Source: an archaeon (GTDB lineage: Archaea > Thermoproteota > Nitrososphaeria > Nitrososphaerales > Gagatemarchaeaceae). Taken from it: a DNA stretch of 64,000 nt. The DNA is taken from the NCBI GenBank assembly GCA_021823325.1, contig JAKAOG010000002.1:1-64000 (forward strand), in the 5' to 3' direction. The notes below the pieces were generated by a model. The model saw only the letters and a program-made list of their open reading frames with translations. It was not told the origin of the DNA and did no database searches. Made by a program: the position numbers and the translations under genes. Positions 7,224 through 26,531 of the stretch are shown one piece after another; the first letter of the stretch is position 1, and every line of letters starts with the position of its first letter.

Positions 7224-7697
7224 GTGTCCTTCGGCCAGACGGTGCCTGCGCGCAAGAGGGTCACCGGCGCGGTCTTCGCGCTGGTCGTCAACGTGATACT
7301 CTGGATCGTCATCCCCTACTATCTGGGCGCGTTCCTGGTGAAGTTCGTCCCTGACATCCCGCTGGGGGTCCCCTCGTTCGTCTACGAGTTCGGGATGCTG
7401 TTCATCGTGCTGGACGTCGGCGCCGCGCTCTTCCAGGGGATGGCGGTGTCGCTGCCTTTCGTCTGCGGAGCGGCCCTTCTTAGCGCCGTGTACCTCTGGT
7501 TCGTGACCAACGGCGGGAGCCTGCAGGTGACGACGTCGGGCATCACCGTCGGGCTGGACTTCCGGCTGCTGCTCTACATCTTCATCGTCCCGTCTCTGTG
7601 GGCGGCGCTGAGAGCGCCGATGTCCTATCTGATCTGGAGGAGAGCGAGGGCGAAGATCGTCCCCCAGGCCCCCGGGTCGTCGGCGACGCCCGCCTAG
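7224..7697 (+). CDS. Multi-TM hypothetical protein
   Basis: Hydrophobic segments; GTG start directly after the upstream stop. Confidence 0.5.
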   Translation: MSFGQTVPARKRVTGAVFALVVNVILWIVIPYYLGAFLVKFVPDIPLGVPSFVYEFGMLFIVLDVGAALFQGMAVSLPFVCGAALLSAVYLWFVTNGGSLQVTTSGITVGLDFRLLLYIFIVPSLWAALRAPMSYLIWRRARAKIVPQAPGSSATPA

Positions 7698-9610
7698 GGC
7701 GGGATGCCTACCTTCCGGCAGAAGTCGGCGAAGCGCGGGTCCCTGTGCAGGGCCCCGAGGAACGGGTCTGACTTCACGAGGAACGGCCACGCGTGTATGT
7801 CGGCGAGCTGGTCAAGCGCGGCGAAAGCCTCGTCGAGGTCCCCGAGCGCGGTCCTCACGAGGAGCGTCGTCCCGAGCTTCACGGTCTGGTCGTTCGCCGG
7901 AGCGCTGTTGAGCACCTCGATGGCCTTCTCGCGCTCCCCCTCGAGCGCGTCTATGACCCCGACGTCCAACCGCACCTCGAGGATGTCCGGGCTCTCCGGG
8001 TTCTCCCTGATCGCGGCCTCGACTATCTGTCGAGCGAGCTTGTAGTCCTTCTTCGTGATGTAGCTCCACGCAGTCGCATGGGAGACGTGGAGGTTGTTCG
8101 GATACAGCCTGCGCATCTTCGAGAGGACGTCCATCGCCTCCTCCACCTTTCCGGACACCCTCAGGGTCTCGGCGAGCATCATGCCGGAGAACAGGGAGAC
8201 GGGGTCGAGCGCGTAGGCCTTGCGCTGGGCGGCCAGGGACTCGTCGAGGATGCCGAAAGCGCCTGTGACCTCTCCCAACGAGTGATAGGCGTCGGCGAGG
8301 TTCGGGTTGAGCCTGACCGCGGCCTCCAGCTCAGTCCGGGCGTCCTCGAACTTGTCTAGGGCGAGGTGCACCCCCGCCATCGCGACGTGGGCTTCTGCCG
8401 TGTCCGGCCCGGTCTCAATCGCCTTTCTCGCCGCGGCCTCGGCCTTCTTCATGGCGTCCAGATAGCTCCCGGTGAAGCCCATGTGCCTGTAGCAAAGCGC
8501 GAGCTCCGAGTACGCCCTGGAGAACCCCGGGTCCTTCGCTATCGCAGACTCCAGGAGGGCGGCGACGTCCTTCAGCTGGCTCGGGGCGGCGTCGTTGAAT
8601 ATCTGCTTGGCCCTGAGGAACTCGGTGTATGCCTCGACGTTGTCCGTCAGCCCCGCCTCCTTCGGGGTCTCTTTCGTGATCTTCGACTTCAGCGCTTCGG
8701 CGACCCTCCCCGCGATGTCCGTCTGGATGGCGAAGACGTCGTCCATGTTCCTGTCGTAGCTTTCAGACCAGATGTGCCTGTCCTTCTCGGCGTCGATCAT
8801 CTGCACCGTCACCCTCAGCCTGTTCCCCGCCTTCCGCACGCTCCCCTCGAGGACCGTCCCCGCGTCGAGCTCGGACGATATCTGGCGGATGGGCTTCGGG
8901 GCCTTCTTGTACTGCATCACCGAGGTCCTTGATATCACCTCGGCCCCGTCTATCCTGGAGACGGTCGAGATCAGCTCCTCGGTCAGCCCGTCTGCGAAGA
9001 ACTCGTCCGCCGGGTCGGGGCTCATGTTAGAGAACGGGAGCACCGCCACCCTCCTGCTTTCCGCCGCGGCCGCCGCCAACGGCTTATCCCATGGCATCTG
9101 AACCGAATAAACTTCCACGGGGACAGAGACGTTCTTGAGCTCGACCTCTCCCATGGACGCGAGCGGGAGGTCGAACTTGTTCCTCACCTGGTCGTACACC
9201 TGCCGGGAGATGCTGATGCCTTCGGGCTTGGCCAAGGGCTGTATCCGGGAGGAGATGTTCACCGCGTCCCCGAAGACGTCTCCTTCCTTGTGTATCACGT
9301 CCCCGAGGTGGACCCCTATCCTGAGCCTGAACCTCCCCACTTCTGCGGCCGCCCTGTTGTGATCGTGGAGCTTGGACTGGATCTCGACGGCGCATCTCAG
9401 CGCGTCCAGCGCGCTGTCGAACTCGACCAGGAACGAGTCCCCGATGGACTTCACCTCCCTCCCGTTGAACCCCGCAAAGCACGGCCGGAGGATGGCGTTG
9501 TGGGCGTCGAGGATGGCCATCGCGCGCGGCTCGCTGGCCTGGGTGATGGCGGTGTACCCGACGATGTCGGTGAACATTATAGCCGCAAGTCGCCGTGAGC
9601 TCTCTGGCAT
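7694..9610 (-). CDS. Class III adenylate/guanylate cyclase with TolB-like domain and TPR repeats
   Basis: RRLAAIMFTDIVGYTAIT..KSIGDSFLVEF..IGVHLGDV..GDAVNISSRIQ; then SRRVAVLPFSNMSPDPADEFFADGLTEELI; then TPRs. Confidence 0.9.
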   Translation of the reverse strand: MPESSRRLAAIMFTDIVGYTAITQASEPRAMAILDAHNAILRPCFAGFNGREVKSIGDSFLVEFDSALDALRCAVEIQSKLHDHNRAAAEVGRFRLRIGVHLGDVIHKEGDVFGDAVNISSRIQPLAKPEGISISRQVYDQVRNKFDLPLASMGEVELKNVSVPVEVYSVQMPWDKPLAAAAAESRRVAVLPFSNMSPDPADEFFADGLTEELISTVSRIDGAEVISRTSVMQYKKAPKPIRQISSELDAGTVLEGSVRKAGNRLRVTVQMIDAEKDRHIWSESYDRNMDDVFAIQTDIAGRVAEALKSKITKETPKEAGLTDNVEAYTEFLRAKQIFNDAAPSQLKDVAALLESAIAKDPGFSRAYSELALCYRHMGFTGSYLDAMKKAEAAARKAIETGPDTAEAHVAMAGVHLALDKFEDARTELEAAVRLNPNLADAYHSLGEVTGAFGILDESLAAQRKAYALDPVSLFSGMMLAETLRVSGKVEEAMDVLSKMRRLYPNNLHVSHATAWSYITKKDYKLARQIVEAAIRENPESPDILEVRLDVGVIDALEGEREKAIEVLNSAPANDQTVKLGTTLLVRTALGDLDEAFAALDQLADIHAWPFLVKSDPFLGALHRDPRFADFCRKVGIPP

Positions 9611-14238: not shown

Positions 14239-14994
14239 CTAGTAGTTGTAGCGCCTTTGCTTCTGCTCCAGTATGACGAGGGCCTCGATGGGGCACGTCA
14301 GCCCCAGCCTCCCCTTCATCTTGGCCATCGACTGGTCCACCGCCGCTATGGAGAAGACCCCGACGATCTTCGCCTTCGCCCGCTCGCACATCCTCGTGAG
14401 CGCCTCCAGGGTCGTCCCGGACCTCACAAGGTCGTCGACTATCAGTATGTGCTCCCCCTTCTTGATGGAGGCCTTCGGGAGGTACAGGTATTTCACCGAA
14501 GACGGCGAGTAGACCGCCTTCTGCTCCACGAACTCGTCCACCCCGAGCTCGCGCTCTGACCTCACGACCGCCAGGTTGACGTTGAACTCCCCCGCAACCT
14601 CCGCGGCGAGCGGGACCCCGTCCACCTCCATGGTAAGCACCCTGTCCACCGACATGAGGCTGAACTCGCTGTAGACCACCTTCGCTATCTGACGGAGGAG
14701 CCCGATGTTGTTCACCACCGCGCTGATGTCGTATGACCCGTCAGGCGTGACCTTGACCGAGTCCATGATCATCTTGCGGAGGAGCTTCTCTCTGAACGTC
14801 GCGATGAACTTCTCGGACCTCGTCGAGCTCGGGAGGACGTGCCCCCTGACGTATCTGCTCAGTATCGGCGCCGACAGCCCCAGGACCGCGGACAGCTCCT
14901 TGTAGCTGTAGCTCTTCTTCAGAGTCGCCAGCAGCTCGACGGATGAAATGCGCGTCTTTACGTCCGCGACCCTGCTCAAGCGGTCATCCCACAT
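14239..14994 (-). CDS. HTH-phosphoribosyltransferase regulator (GfcR-like)
   Basis: N-terminal HTH (YSYKELSAVLGLSAPILSRYVRG) fused to PRTase with ILIVDDLVRSGTT. Confidence 0.85.
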   Translation of the reverse strand: MWDDRLSRVADVKTRISSVELLATLKKSYSYKELSAVLGLSAPILSRYVRGHVLPSSTRSEKFIATFREKLLRKMIMDSVKVTPDGSYDISAVVNNIGLLRQIAKVVYSEFSLMSVDRVLTMEVDGVPLAAEVAGEFNVNLAVVRSERELGVDEFVEQKAVYSPSSVKYLYLPKASIKKGEHILIVDDLVRSGTTLEALTRMCERAKAKIVGVFSIAAVDQSMAKMKGRLGLTCPIEALVILEQKQRRYNY

Positions 14995-15044
14995 GCGATG
15001 CAGGCATGTGCTAAATTAGGTTATCCCCGTAGCTGGACTTTGAG

Positions 15045-16409
15045 TCATCTGCCGACAGCGGCCGCCGGACCCTCCGCGGCGCCCGCAGAGACCCTCTGCC
15101 TCGGCCGCCCGTCCAGCATGGAGAGCTCTTTCATCGCGGCGAACGCGAGGCCGGACACCAGGAGCAGGGCGCCTACCACATCATAGACAGGGAGTATCCC
15201 ATATGCCGCGACGAGCAGCCCCCCTGCCACCACCGCAGGCGGCCCCCCGAGGAAGCTGAGGAGCCCGTCTATCGCGAAGTAACGGCCCCGCATCTCTGAC
15301 GGGACGAGGTGCTGCGCGGACGTGAGCCACACGTTGCCCGCGAACCCCGTCCCTATCCCCATCACCAGGTTGGCGACGACGGCGACCTCGGCGTTGGGGA
15401 ACGCCCCCTGCACCATCACCAGCGCGCCTGAGAGGACGCCGTACATGAGGACCCACGCCCTGCCGGCGTATGCGAGCGCGTTCGTCCGCCCGACCGACAG
15501 CGACCCCACCGCCCTGCCGATGACGTACGACGCCAGCACGGCGCCGAAGGTGAGCGCGTCGGCCTTGAGGGCCACGCTGACGTAGACGACGATGAAGTAT
15601 CCGGGGATGGAGGCGAGGAAGTTGAAGACCGCGGCGGAGAGGGAGAGCTGGAAGAGCCCCTTCTGCGTCCACAGCCAACGGAACCCTTCGCGGGTCTGCG
15701 ACCCCATCTTAGGTCGCGGGGCGTCGGCCGCACGCGTCGTCCCGTGCGTCCTGAACCTGAGGAAGAGGAAGGCCGAGAAGCACGCCGCGACGGCGTACCC
15801 CACGGCGCCGTACGCGAAAGCGAACGTCGCGCCGACGAAAGCCACGATGGCGCCTCCGATGAAGTTCGAGGCGGAGCTAGCAAGCATGTAGCTGGAGCGG
15901 GTGAGCCCGTTGGCGTCGGTCACCTCGTCCGGGGCGACGAGGTCCGGGAGGGAAGAGTAGTCGGCTGACCGGTACAGCTCCGTCGCCCCGTTCCAGGCGA
16001 AGACTATCGCCACGACCCCCACCAGGGAGAGTCCGAACGTGGCGGTCATCGTGGCCAGGAGGAAGAGGCTCCCCGCCCTCACCAGGTTGGCGAGCAGGAG
16101 CAGGCGGCGCCTGTCGTGCCTGTCGACCCATACCCCTGCTGGGAGCGAGACCACGACCGCCGCGAGGGTCTGGGACGCCCCCACGACCGTGACCTCGATC
16201 GGCGAGTGGGTGACGGCGAAGACGTACCAGATCACCGCCAGGTTCCCCACCTGCCCGGCCGTGGACGAGGAGACGTTCATCGCGAGGTAGTCCCGGAAGC
16301 TCCTGTTCCTCAGGAACCCCCGGCGCGGCGGGGACGACAAGCGGCAGCCTCGGCCGGAGGCGGCTACTAAACGTAGAAGGGATCGTCTGCCGTTCCGGCG
16401 GTCACTCAA
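15045..16409 (-). CDS. MFS transporter
   Basis: 12-TM pattern, GVWVDRHDRRRLLLLANL motif. Confidence 0.85.
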   Translation of the reverse strand: MSDRRNGRRSLLRLVAASGRGCRLSSPPRRGFLRNRSFRDYLAMNVSSSTAGQVGNLAVIWYVFAVTHSPIEVTVVGASQTLAAVVVSLPAGVWVDRHDRRRLLLLANLVRAGSLFLLATMTATFGLSLVGVVAIVFAWNGATELYRSADYSSLPDLVAPDEVTDANGLTRSSYMLASSASNFIGGAIVAFVGATFAFAYGAVGYAVAACFSAFLFLRFRTHGTTRAADAPRPKMGSQTREGFRWLWTQKGLFQLSLSAAVFNFLASIPGYFIVVYVSVALKADALTFGAVLASYVIGRAVGSLSVGRTNALAYAGRAWVLMYGVLSGALVMVQGAFPNAEVAVVANLVMGIGTGFAGNVWLTSAQHLVPSEMRGRYFAIDGLLSFLGGPPAVVAGGLLVAAYGILPVYDVVGALLLVSGLAFAAMKELSMLDGRPRQRVSAGAAEGPAAAVGR

Positions 16410-16736
16410 CTCAGCGGCCGGGCCTCTGGCGCCTCGCAGGTGCTCCCTGGCGATGAGAGAAGGGGCCGTAACCAGGAAACCAACATGGGCACGACGAACT
16501 CCTGGAAAGGGAATCCCGGCACGCTCCGGCTCGCCGTGGCGGTCTCTTCGATAGCCGCGTAGTCGTGCGGGACGGCACGGACGCCGCCTTCAGGGACAGG
16601 GATGTAGCACTGCCCGTTGCGGCAGAGCTTGAGCTTGTGGTAGACGAGGAGAGGGTCACATTAAGAGAGATGTCGGTAATCGCGGTTTCAGCGAGTGGAA
16701 GCGCGCACCGGTAGACCTGCGGCCACCGCTTTCGTG

Positions 16737-17897
16737 TCAACTGACCGAGGGAATTTCCGGGATAAAATTGAACAGCCCGATTCGAGGATATCCATCACGA
16801 AAATCCAGTTTGGAGACCGAAGCGGGTTCAGGGTAGAAGCACCGCATCTTTCCGTAATCAAAGCCCAAAGTGGAACATATTGCCGCCGCTATGGGATCTC
16901 CATGAGAGACTAGCAGCGCGTTCCCTTTGCATTGCCTCCTGATGGATTCTATCGAGGCGTGCATTCTGGACATTAGATGTGAAAAACTCTCTCCATTGTC
17001 ATACCTTTGACGGTCATAGGGATTACCATATCTCCCCAATACCACGTTCAACTTCATGCCTTCCCAAGAACCTACGTCGGCTCCTGTTAAATCGTCCATC
17101 ACTCTTACCTTGAGCTTATGGGGCTTGGAGATTGTCTCCGCGGTCTCTAGCGCACGTTTCAATGGACTCGAATAGATACACTCGAAGTCCTCGCTTTCGA
17201 GGAACCGAGAGACTCCTCTTGCTTGATCTTTGCCCTTCTGGCTCAGACCAATGTCGTTTCTCCCCCTTAGTCTGCCCTCAACATTCCATTTGCTCAGCCC
17301 GTGTCGAACGAGGAAAAGAGCGTGACGATACTTGATTGGAGCGGGGGCCCTTGGAGCCGGTGCGATAAGATTCTTGGAGGTCAGACAATCCATTATCCTG
17401 TCGACTGAAGATGCCACACTTAGCACCGTTGTCTCAACGGTTACTTCCGGATGAAGGGGAATTTCGTATCTGTCACCCTTACCCGTGAAGTTCTTGACTA
17501 GGCCTCGGTTCGCCTTAGCGTACAGCCCCTTGGGGTCGCGTTGGATACAGACTTCTAGCGGGCAACTAACGTAAACCTCAACAAAGTGCGTGTTTTCGCC
17601 ACGGACGAACTCCCTCGATTTTTCATACGGAGAAACAAAGGAAGCAACAACGTTGATTCCATGCTTGGTCAAAAGCTTGCAGACATGCGAGATGCGTTGA
17701 AGATGCTGGACCCTCGCTGACGGTTCGAACCCGGTATCAAACCCGGGATGCTTCCTGATCTCATCTCCATCCAACATCTCCGTCTTATAGCCGCGGCGAG
17801 CTAGCTCGCGCGCCAAGGCAGCGCCGATCGTGGACTTGCCAGAGCCCGGGAGACCGGTCAGCCATACGACAAAACCCTCCTTGGCTTGGTCCACCAA
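16737..17897 (-). CDS. Fusion protein: APS-kinase-like domain plus histidine phosphatase
   Basis: WLTGLPGSGKSTIGAALA, MLDGDEIR, FVEVYVSCPLEVCIQRDPKGLYAKA; then LVRHGLSKWNVEGRLRGRNDIGLSQKG, SSPLKRALETAE, VSHGDPI. Start moved to TTG just after the upstream stop. Confidence 0.85.
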   Translation of the reverse strand: MVDQAKEGFVVWLTGLPGSGKSTIGAALARELARRGYKTEMLDGDEIRKHPGFDTGFEPSARVQHLQRISHVCKLLTKHGINVVASFVSPYEKSREFVRGENTHFVEVYVSCPLEVCIQRDPKGLYAKANRGLVKNFTGKGDRYEIPLHPEVTVETTVLSVASSVDRIMDCLTSKNLIAPAPRAPAPIKYRHALFLVRHGLSKWNVEGRLRGRNDIGLSQKGKDQARGVSRFLESEDFECIYSSPLKRALETAETISKPHKLKVRVMDDLTGADVGSWEGMKLNVVLGRYGNPYDRQRYDNGESFSHLMSRMHASIESIRRQCKGNALLVSHGDPIAAAICSTLGFDYGKMRCFYPEPASVSKLDFRDGYPRIGLFNFIPEIPSVS

Positions 17898-17902
17898 TCC
17901 AC

Positions 17903-18796
17903 TTACCGGGGTCCGAATCGTCTGATCAATATGGTAAGCCCCAAGCCCAGGATGAAATACGAGTAGGCAATCTGAAGCAAAAGAAGCCCTTCGTTCCCTG
18001 AAGGACTGGCAACGAGAAAGGACCTTTGAACTGACAGGTTTAGAGCCTGAGCCAAGTCTAGACCAGTGGCCCAATTTGCGAACCCAAAGGCAAATACGCT
18101 CAGAATGAATGTGATTCCCCAGTTCTGAATGCTTTCCCCATATCCTGTCACTATCCCCCAAAAGCCGAAAGCGAACCCTTTCGGCCAACTCTCGGATGTC
18201 AGCTTGCGCTGGAGAGTTCTCTGCTCGTTGAAGTAAGCCTTGCCCGCCATGTCGTAGTCACCGACGTCGCTCCATACGCCCTTCGCCCGGCGATACGATC
18301 TGATTGCATCTGACATCAGCTCTTGAACTTCACTCTTTGGCCTGCCATGCTTCTGCAGAAGCCCAACTGCCTCAACGTAGCATCGACCGGACTTGTTGTA
18401 TGCGATTCCTGACCGCCTGTACTCCTCCAAGCCCCGAAAACCGTGCCCTGAGAAGTGGTATATTCGCCCGGCCATGGTATAATATTGAATCCTTTTGGCG
18501 TCGTCGTCCAGGCAGTCAGCCACGGCTTCATAGGAGGCAGCAGAAGAGTAGTACAGAAAGCTCTGTCGATATGAGCCAAGGTAGGTCGCAGGGAAGAGGA
18601 GGTCTGCGTCCGTTTTGAACTTCTCCGCTCTCGCGACAAACACATCCGGCGACCCCTTGACGACGGATTTTCCCTTCGCAACCTCCTCAGAGAGTTCGTC
18701 AAGGTAAGGCTGAAACTCCTTCTTCAACGTGTCGGGAGTCTCGGCGGACAACGGCCATGATTCTCGGGGTTGATTAATTGAAGTTTGCCCGAGCAC
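17903..18796 (-). CDS. Helical-repeat (TPR-like) protein with C-terminal two-TM channel-like domain
   Basis: Tyr/Ala-rich helical repeats, then YGESIQNWGITFILSVFAFGFA and IAYSYFILGLGLTILIRRFG. Confidence 0.65.
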   Translation of the reverse strand: MLGQTSINQPRESWPLSAETPDTLKKEFQPYLDELSEEVAKGKSVVKGSPDVFVARAEKFKTDADLLFPATYLGSYRQSFLYYSSAASYEAVADCLDDDAKRIQYYTMAGRIYHFSGHGFRGLEEYRRSGIAYNKSGRCYVEAVGLLQKHGRPKSEVQELMSDAIRSYRRAKGVWSDVGDYDMAGKAYFNEQRTLQRKLTSESWPKGFAFGFWGIVTGYGESIQNWGITFILSVFAFGFANWATGLDLAQALNLSVQRSFLVASPSGNEGLLLLQIAYSYFILGLGLTILIRRFGPR

Positions 18797-18847
18797 AAAA
18801 CTTTCGAAGCTTGGCCGATCGATGGGCGCACACGTGCAAATCGTATC

Positions 18848-18863
18848 AAAGGCAGGTGCCTTT
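18848..18863. promoter_or_regulatory. Palindrome AAAGGCAggTGCCTTT upstream of tgtA
   Basis: Perfect 7-bp arms in the divergent intergenic region. Confidence 0.3.
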
Positions 18864-18923
18864 TTGGGACAACGAGGTTTGTCCCTCAGCGCTTAAAGCG
18901 ACCGCCCACTCGGCTGAGCGAAG

Positions 18924-20396
18924 TTGGAGTTCACGTTTGAAGTGAAGGAGACGGACCTCCTCGGGAGGGTCGGGGAGCTGCGCGTGGGAGGGAAGACCCT
19001 GGAGACCCCTTACATGTTCCCGGTCATCCACCCGGTCAACCAGCAGATACCGACCCAGGAGCTGACGTCGATGGGGTACGCCGGGCTGATGACCAACTCC
19101 TACATCATCTACTCTCGGAGGAGGCAGGAGGCGCTCGAGAAGGGGATACACTCGCTCCTGGGTTACGACGGGGTCTTCATCACAGACTCGGGAGGGTACC
19201 AGGTCCTCGAGTACGGAGACCTGGAGATCGGTTACAAGGACGTGGCTGAGTTCCAGGCTCGAATCGGCTCGGAGCTGGCGGTGACGCTCGACAGGCCGAC
19301 GGGGTACCCGCAGAAGAGGCCCGTTGCGAAGGCGTCCGTGGACTACAGCTTCAAGAACGCGAAGGCGACGCTGGACGAGTTCGGAGAAGAGAAGACGACG
19401 TGGGTCGGCCCCATCCAGGGAGGGCTGTACCTCGACCTTGTCAGGAGGTCTGCGAAGTCCCTCGTCGCGGCCGGGTTCGAGTTCCTCGCGCTCGGGAGCC
19501 CCGTGCAGGTCATGCAGAACTACATGTACTCGGACCTCGTCGACATGATCGTCGCCGCGAGGCGCGCCATACCGTACTCCGTCCCGCTGCACCTCTTCGG
19601 CGCGGGGCACCCGCTGACGATGCCTCTCGCAGTGGCGCTCGGGTGCGACACCTTCGACTCGGCGAGCTACGTCCTCTTCGCCAGGAGCGGCCGCTACATG
19701 ACGAGGAGCGGGGTCCTCACGCTGAAGTCGATGAAGTACCTCCCATGCAGCTGCCCCGCCTGCGCCGCGACCAGCGTCACGGAGCTGTCGGAGATGGGGC
19801 ACCAGGAGAGGACGCGCGTCCTTTCCCTCCACAACCTGTCTGTCCTCAGGGAGGAGATCGAGTCGTGCAAGGAGGCGGTGTCTGAAGGGAGGCTCTGGGA
19901 CCTGGTCGAGGAGAGGTCCATGGCTCACCCGAAGCTAAGGGACGCCTTCGCGAGGATGGCGGAGTACAGCCGCGACCTTGAAGTCGGGACCCCCGCCCTG
20001 AAGGACAGGGGGCTCTTCGTCAGGAGCGACCTCGACCGGGCGAGGCCCGAGCTCGCGATAGCGAAGTCCAACCTCGCGGGCGCGACGTCGAAAAGGTCGA
20101 AGGCGGCGCGGGTGGTGGCGGGCCCGTCGGGGAGCAGAGAGAAGGCGGACGAAGACCTCTACGGCGTCCACCCCGTCCTGGGGGCGTATCCTATCGAGCT
20201 TCAGTTCCAGTACCCGTTCAGCCAGACCGAGACTTCCTTAGCCCAGGCCGCGCCCCCCGACCCGAAGAGACAGCTGAAGGCGCTCGGTTACGCCACGGTG
20301 AAGAAACGGGCGGGCGAAGGGAAGCCTGTCAGGAGTAGACGGACCCGGCGGGGCGCTTCTCCTTCTCTTCGATCATCTTCAGCTCGCTCTCGATGA
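18924..20396 (+). CDS. tgtA: Archaeosine tRNA-guanine transglycosylase
   Basis: TDSGGYQVLEYG, TLDRPTGYP, WVGPIQGGLY, GAGHPLTMPLAVALGCDTFDSASY, CSCPAC. Confidence 0.95.
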   Translation: MEFTFEVKETDLLGRVGELRVGGKTLETPYMFPVIHPVNQQIPTQELTSMGYAGLMTNSYIIYSRRRQEALEKGIHSLLGYDGVFITDSGGYQVLEYGDLEIGYKDVAEFQARIGSELAVTLDRPTGYPQKRPVAKASVDYSFKNAKATLDEFGEEKTTWVGPIQGGLYLDLVRRSAKSLVAAGFEFLALGSPVQVMQNYMYSDLVDMIVAARRAIPYSVPLHLFGAGHPLTMPLAVALGCDTFDSASYVLFARSGRYMTRSGVLTLKSMKYLPCSCPACAATSVTELSEMGHQERTRVLSLHNLSVLREEIESCKEAVSEGRLWDLVEERSMAHPKLRDAFARMAEYSRDLEVGTPALKDRGLFVRSDLDRARPELAIAKSNLAGATSKRSKAARVVAGPSGSREKADEDLYGVHPVLGAYPIELQFQYPFSQTETSLAQAAPPDPKRQLKALGYATVKKRAGEGKPVRSRRTRRGASPSLRSSSARSR

Positions 20397-21024
20397 CCTC
20401 GGCCCCCTTGATCAGCGGCGCCGTGTTGGCCGTGAACCCGTACCTCTTGGACAGGAACTCGACCGCCGCGGCCGCGGCCCTCGGGTCGACCCGTTCCGTG
20501 TTGGAGTAGGCGAGCACCGCCACCGCAGGGAAGGAGTTCATCTCGAACGCGTTCAGCAGCGAGGCGACGGGCCCGACGATCATCCTGTCCTCCTCGAATA
20601 TCGGCTCCCCCGGGGCCCCTCCCTTGGAGGCGAAGGCGCTCGTCATCGCCAGCTTGTACCTGCTGTCGTCCGTCCTGAGCGTCTCGTCGAGCCCGCCGAC
20701 GAGAGCGACCTCCTTGACCCCCGACCCCATCATCCAGTCGGCGAGCTGCCTGTAGAACTCGTTCTCCTTCTCCCTTACGGGAGAGACCTCTGCCTTCAGC
20801 AGGGAAAGCTCCCCGGCCGAGAACACCTCGTACGGGGTGGATATCCTCCCTTCCACCTGAGAGGCGACCGCGGGGGCGTGCTCGTAGTCGATGAACGCCC
20901 TCCTTTCGGCCTTCAGCTCTGTGATCAGGAACTTCACGGTCCAGTATCCGGTGGCTCCGATGCCGTGGAACCCGGCTATGAGAGACGTGCCGTCCAGCCT
21001 GCTGTCTGCGGGGACCACCTTCAA
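20329..21024 (-). CDS. PAC2-family (proteasome assembly chaperone-like) protein
   Basis: LIAGFHGIGATGYWTVKFLI, VALVGGLDET, PRAAAAAVEFLSKRYGF. Confidence 0.85.
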   Translation of the reverse strand: MKVVPADSRLDGTSLIAGFHGIGATGYWTVKFLITELKAERRAFIDYEHAPAVASQVEGRISTPYEVFSAGELSLLKAEVSPVREKENEFYRQLADWMMGSGVKEVALVGGLDETLRTDDSRYKLAMTSAFASKGGAPGEPIFEEDRMIVGPVASLLNAFEMNSFPAVAVLAYSNTERVDPRAAAAAVEFLSKRYGFTANTAPLIKGAEVIESELKMIEEKEKRPAGSVYS

Positions 21025-25655: not shown

Positions 25656-26531
25656 TTGAGCGACCCACAGGCGGTGCTGCCCGAGAAGAGGGTGACTGCG
25701 GGGAACCTGCTCGTCGCTGCCGCGGTGGTGGCCGTGATCCAGCTCGTCGCGCTTTCGATAACGAGCCAGAACCTGCCCGTCTACAGCACCCTTCCGGGCC
25801 CGAGCTACGCGCCGGCGGGGACGTCGATAGCCGGGTCAGCCGTCAACGCGGTGATCCTGGTGGCGTTCGCCTTCGTCATGACGGTGGTGCTCGTATGGCT
25901 GCTCAGGAGGAAGATGGTCCTTTCGTTCAAGGTGCTGATATTCGGCTCGGTCGCATTCTCGGCGTTCGTGCTCACCCTCGTCACCGCCGACATGTTCGCG
26001 GTGAACTACCTCCCGGCCAGCTTCGAGCTCCCGGTGGCGTACGGGGTCCCCGCGCTGATCGTCGCCGCGCTGGCGTACGTCATATTCGTGAAGAACGTCC
26101 CGTGGCTCGGGACGGTGATGCTCGCCTTCGTCGGCGCGGAGGTCGGGAGCTTCTTCGCCGAGACCCTGTCGCCGTGGACGGCGCTGGCCCTCCCCATCGC
26201 GTTCTCGGTCTACGACATCTACGCGGTGTTCAGGGGGCCGCTCAAGGCCCTCGTCGGGACGGCTCCGAACATCGCGCTCGTGGGCATGTCCATCAAGGCG
26301 GGCGAGTTCACCATCGGCCTCGGGGACGTGGTCTTCTACACCCTCCTCCCGTCGCTCGCGCTCTATCAGTTCTATCCGACGTTCGGCATCCTCCCTGCGG
26401 CGCTCACGATAGCGGCGATAGACGTGGGGACGGTGATAACGCTCTTCCTCCTGTCCAAGAAGCGGCTCCTGCCGGGGCTCCCGATACCGATACTGCTCGG
26501 GGTCCTGGTGATAGTCGGGTTCCTGGTCTAG
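25656..26531 (+). CDS. Presenilin/signal-peptide-peptidase-like intramembrane aspartyl protease
   Basis: Multi-TM with FSVYDIYAVFRGPLK and TIGLGDVVFYTLL. Confidence 0.85.
   Translation: MSDPQAVLPEKRVTAGNLLVAAAVVAVIQLVALSITSQNLPVYSTLPGPSYAPAGTSIAGSAVNAVILVAFAFVMTVVLVWLLRRKMVLSFKVLIFGSVAFSAFVLTLVTADMFAVNYLPASFELPVAYGVPALIVAALAYVIFVKNVPWLGTVMLAFVGAEVGSFFAETLSPWTALALPIAFSVYDIYAVFRGPLKALVGTAPNIALVGMSIKAGEFTIGLGDVVFYTLLPSLALYQFYPTFGILPAALTIAAIDVGTVITLFLLSKKRLLPGLPIPILLGVLVIVGFLV

Follow-up and report, generated by a model that had tools for sequence, protein, structure and literature searches.

In the 64,000-nucleotide stretch of archaeal DNA analysed here (the window), we identified a gene in which an APS kinase domain is joined to a histidine phosphatase (HP) domain. 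The fusion is real, as the original prediction had claimed, and both domains score well above their Pfam cut-offs. Our tentative reading is that the product is a PAPS-forming kinase with a flexibly linked, impaired HP module, and that the gene came from an imported two-gene cassette.

Gene structure and domain composition

The fusion gene is an ORF for 386 aa on the minus strand (16737–17897). Its N-terminal part matched APS_kinase (PF01583) over residues 8–154 (E = 4.6e-51, 173.3 bits, cut-off 21.1) and its C-terminal part matched His_Phos_1 (PF00300) over residues 194–377 (E = 5.3e-47, 160.4 bits, cut-off 21.7); both matches are far above chance. The NCBIfam model apsK also recognised the protein (187.6 bits, cut-off 138.7), while the nearest HP equivalog models in NCBIfam (PspA and CobC) matched it but under their own cut-offs. 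The stop codon ends at 16737 and the likely start is the TTG at 17897 or the GTG at 17894, because the frame, although open further upstream to 18188, overlaps the next gene there in another frame.

The kinase domain spans approximately residues 6–178 (17364–17882) and the HP domain approximately residues 192–378 (16764–17324), both on the minus strand. The two halves were assessed in separate structure models, and the Ala/Pro-rich linker between them (approximately residues 179–191, 17325–17363, minus strand) had low confidence in both.

The kinase half

The P-loop, the DGDxxR motif, R62, H65, RDPKGLY and FTG are all present in the kinase half, and the motifs originally quoted (DGDEIR, the Arg that follows it, and RVQHLQRI) read in the sequence as given. 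We aligned the domain with 53 other kinases, mostly archaeal and three of them from solved structures. Among the 44 positions conserved in at least 90 % of the alignment, 42 are kept in the fusion, and H79 and V134 are mild exceptions. The predicted structure was mostly of high confidence and its closest fold was 7yq1 (rmsd 1.1 over 171 columns), the A. fulgidus enzyme, which was crystallised with AMP-PNP and APS.

The His in RVQHLQRI (His65) had been considered a departure from APS binding. This turned out to be wrong, as His is the archaeal norm at this position (49 of the 53 other kinases, with Asn in the remaining 4) and is also found in 8a8h, 2yvu and 7yq0/7yq1. The activity of 8a8h, the APS kinase of M. 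thermolithotrophicus, was confirmed by a coupled assay (PMC10322725). Since the assayed 8a8h and the APS-bound 7yq1 both carry it, His65 gives no argument for another substrate, and we ruled it out as a specificity switch. Because 42 of the 44 conserved positions are kept, the closest fold is the APS-bound 7yq1, and His65 occurs in proven APS kinases, the kinase half most likely phosphorylates the 3′-OH of APS to form PAPS.

The phosphatase half

For the HP domain, aligned with 17 relatives, the prediction was of high confidence, and the folds closest to it are those of the phosphoserine phosphatases 4ij6 (TMt 0.87) and 4ij5. R198-H199-G200, N205, R248, E303 and H332 are present, and 20 of the 22 positions conserved in at least 85 % are kept. 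One of the two exceptions, I373 in place of Leu, is mild; the other, Gly272 (codon GGA, 17082–17084, minus strand), is sharp. Position 272 corresponds to the proton-donor position of PhoE. The 21 other aligned HPs, which come from different genomes and solved structures, have Glu (20) or Asp (1) at this position, and this usual donor is absent from the fusion. We predict that the domain is impaired or altered, though not certainly dead. HP families differ in their proton donor (PMC12051542), and in the phosphatase of PPIP5K a Glu-to-Ala change at the corresponding position leads to activation and a wider substrate range (PMC11836120), so Gly272 need not impair the domain. The codon, one base from GAA and known from one genome only, may also be a base error. 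These two points count against the impairment assumed in our preferred reading.

The idea of an enzyme that simply makes and removes the same phosphate is doubtful, because the proton-donor Glu is replaced by Gly272. A true bifunctional enzyme similar to PFK-2/FBPase-2 would form PAPS with its kinase and remove the 3′-phosphate of PAPS or PAP with its HP domain, using another acid, such as E279 or D334, or water as the donor. Both phosphate-handling pockets are otherwise kept, the layout is that of known kinase/HP fusions, and proton donors differ among families and are replaced in active branch-2 enzymes. However, all 21 other aligned HPs have Glu or Asp at position 272. Moreover, we found no stand-alone HP gene beside the APS kinase in those kinase loci of relatives that were examined, most with only about 1.5 kb of flank, so there is no sign of such a cycle elsewhere. 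We consider this bifunctional enzyme possible but rather doubtful.

Comparison with known systems

The fusion kinase has its motifs, fold and His in common with the APS kinases (CysC) 7yq1 of A. fulgidus, 8a8h of M. thermolithotrophicus and 2yvu of A. pernix, but these are single-domain proteins, whereas the fusion carries an HP domain and has a much longer branch. APS kinase is likewise part of a two-domain enzyme in the bifunctional ATP sulfurylase/APS kinases (2gks, human PAPSS); their partner domain is the ATP sulfurylase, which makes the substrate, and in the fusion it is a phosphatase. The HP domain has the fold, the RHG motif, the Arg and the second His in common with PspA/iPSP (4ij5, 4ij6) and other branch-1 histidine phosphatases, from which it differs by Gly272 in place of the proton-donor Glu and by the attached kinase.

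The parallel with PFK-2/FBPase-2, drawn in the original prediction, was borne out as one of layout, as both proteins have an N-terminal P-loop kinase and a C-terminal branch-1 histidine phosphatase. The kinases belong to different families: that of PFK-2/FBPase-2 is 6PF2K, which gave no match among the Pfam results for the fusion protein, and that of the fusion is PF01583. FBPase-2 retains the proton-donor Glu. PPIP5K has a phytase-like phosphatase, acts on inositol pyrophosphates and its kinase is of a family unlike that of the fusion. It too combines a kinase and a histidine phosphatase acting on the same messenger in one protein (PMC11836120).

Probable insertion and origin of the cassette

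Immediately upstream of the fusion gene lies a gene for a 297-aa protein (17903–18796, minus strand), which ends 5 nt before the start of the fusion. This spacing suggests that the two genes probably form one operon. Hydropathy points to a putative membrane protein, with C-terminal hydrophobic segments at approximately residues 222–249 and 269–294; the searches returned no convincing relative. Both genes have a GC content of 0.52–0.53 and a GC3 of 0.57–0.61, whereas the eight neighbouring genes sampled have a GC3 of 0.84–0.91.

The closest relative examined, judged by the TGT protein (82 % identity), is genome G021. There, DNA matching window positions 14897–16370 is followed by 16 bp and then by DNA matching 18885–20999. 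The stretch 16371–18884 (about 2.5 kb), which contains the two genes of low GC and GC3, is thus missing from G021. An insertion in this archaeon may be the best explanation; a loss in G021 seems less likely because of the odd composition of the stretch. A GC-rich segment (16411–16740, GC 0.64) also falls within the insertion, outside both low-GC genes and without a counterpart in G021, and may be a gene remnant.

Several further readings of the locus were considered. We found no long repeats on either side of the insertion, and the neighbouring ORFs scanned included neither an integrase nor a transposase, so we rejected a mobile element. A defence system was rejected as well, as the fusion had only weak P-loop hits in PADLOC and the upstream protein had no hit at all. 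A phage or plasmid origin was dismissed for lack of a fused homologue in the plasmid and phage records.

In the tree, the fusion kinase did not fall with the other APS kinases of its genus and grouped with those of G037 and G031, from another genus of the same family, together with other archaeal families and 2yvu. This placement is unsure, as the row is very long and its fork is weakly supported; the branch of 2.49 is the longest in the tree (median 0.26). The kinase is not an ordinary orthologue. We consider the cassette probably foreign because of its GC3, the empty site in G021, and the position of the kinase outside its own genus.

Two other genes in the window may be mentioned. At 7694–9610 (minus strand) lies a gene for a protein with a class III adenylate/guanylate cyclase domain and TPR repeats, with similar DNA in G021 and G009. 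At 25656–26531 (plus strand), a gene for a presenilin-family protein directly follows that of a beta-CASP nuclease.

Sulfur metabolism genes

The absence of ATP sulfurylase and PAPS reductase near the gene had already been pointed out, and we likewise found neither among the neighbouring ORFs scanned; a sulfate-assimilation operon at the fusion locus was rejected on the same scan. The assembly is a draft in 7 contigs, 86 % complete, and the window begins at a contig end. In its remaining part there was no match for ATP sulfurylase (PF01747) and no convincing PAPS reductase, the only hit of PF01507 being partial and of marginal score (22.5 bits, cut-off 22.5). Neither of the sulfotransferase families PF13469 and PF00685 was found in the assembly. 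A full sulfate operon elsewhere in the genome, which would have spoken against the original prediction, was not found in this 86 %-complete assembly, in which the expected locus lies past the contig end. By synteny with G021, the ATP sulfurylase operon is expected about 12 kb beyond that end. A DNA search for the G021-type operon region gave no match, but an empty answer from such a search shows nothing.

Several relatives have their APS kinase gene about 2 kb away from one for ATP sulfurylase. In G021 (L089:7153-10299), an ATP sulfurylase gene is followed by those of a type I phosphodiesterase, an APS kinase and a polysaccharide flippase-type protein, in this order, and genes for glycosyltransferases and an epimerase lie close by. 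This neighbourhood suggests sulfation of surface glycans. Another genome of the same order, G088, has at least six APS-kinase-like genes, located on contigs C6, C9, C12, C13, C21 and C22.

That no ATP sulfurylase to supply APS was found in the 86 %-complete assembly counts against the APS kinase reading. So do the long branch (2.49 vs 0.26) and five residues, P51, G52, S60, E92 and R143, which the fusion shares with none of the other rows although these kinase columns are otherwise well conserved; a changed substrate could be the reason. The kinase might then act on another nucleotide or small molecule, as does Cj1415 on cytidine diphosphoramidate, with the HP domain serving the same pathway. 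The foreign origin of the gene and the failure to find PAPS reductase or sulfotransferase in the assembly would fit such a role. On the other hand, the APS kinase motifs are kept, the nearest relatives by sequence include an APS kinase linked to ATP sulfurylase (G031), and the assembly is incomplete, with the expected operon past the contig end. A substrate other than APS therefore appears unlikely to us.

Distribution of the fusion

The original prediction had proposed looking for the same fusion in other genomes, and no second copy was recovered. Protein searches covered three overlapping archaeal sets (of 151, 398 and 400 genomes, together about 720 different ones), and among the matches listed only the one from its own genome spanned both domains; a weak second case may have escaped these listings. 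The fusion query was not covered to 80 % at any place in 72,556 plasmid and 50,697 phage records. A pattern scan of GTDB species genomes, which finds close relatives only, returned only relatives of the kinase half, and a literature search for the combination of APS kinase and histidine phosphatase found no paper. The fusion is probably rare. It could be an accident that happened once and has no joint function under selection, such as a recent merge of two genes, an imported gene in decay, or a mistake in the assembly or in a base. The single copy, the long branch and the draft assembly in 7 contigs would agree with this, but we regard it as improbable, as the Ala/Pro linker is in frame, both halves have the same odd composition as the upstream gene, and almost all conserved positions are kept in both domains, which speaks against decay.

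Proposed function and significance

We return to the PAPS-forming kinase with an impaired HP module as the reading that we tentatively prefer. A foreign two-gene cassette would have been inserted between the genes for an MFS transporter and for TGT. Its second gene would encode an APS kinase domain that still phosphorylates the 3′-OH of APS to PAPS, tethered by a flexible linker to an HP domain that kept its phosphate pocket and lost its proton donor. The HP half would most likely act as a slow phosphatase or as a binding or regulatory module for a phosphorylated ligand, and the whole protein would be a net kinase. We infer in this way the kinase activity, APS as the substrate and the impairment of the phosphatase, and also that the protein works together with the putative membrane protein encoded upstream. 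A more specific version, which we consider improbable, is a self-controlled nucleotide enzyme: the APS kinase would be governed by an HP domain that binds or slowly hydrolyses a 3′-phosphonucleotide and, with the membrane-protein partner from the cassette, would form an undescribed control or signalling module.

Fusions of kinases with histidine phosphatases, such as PFK-2/FBPase-2 and PPIP5K, are well-known metabolic switches. A version with APS kinase would suggest that archaea, whose use of PAPS is poorly understood, control PAPS or a related nucleotide directly. As a single catalytic position is altered, it can be tested cleanly whether the phosphatase half works as an enzyme or as a sensor.
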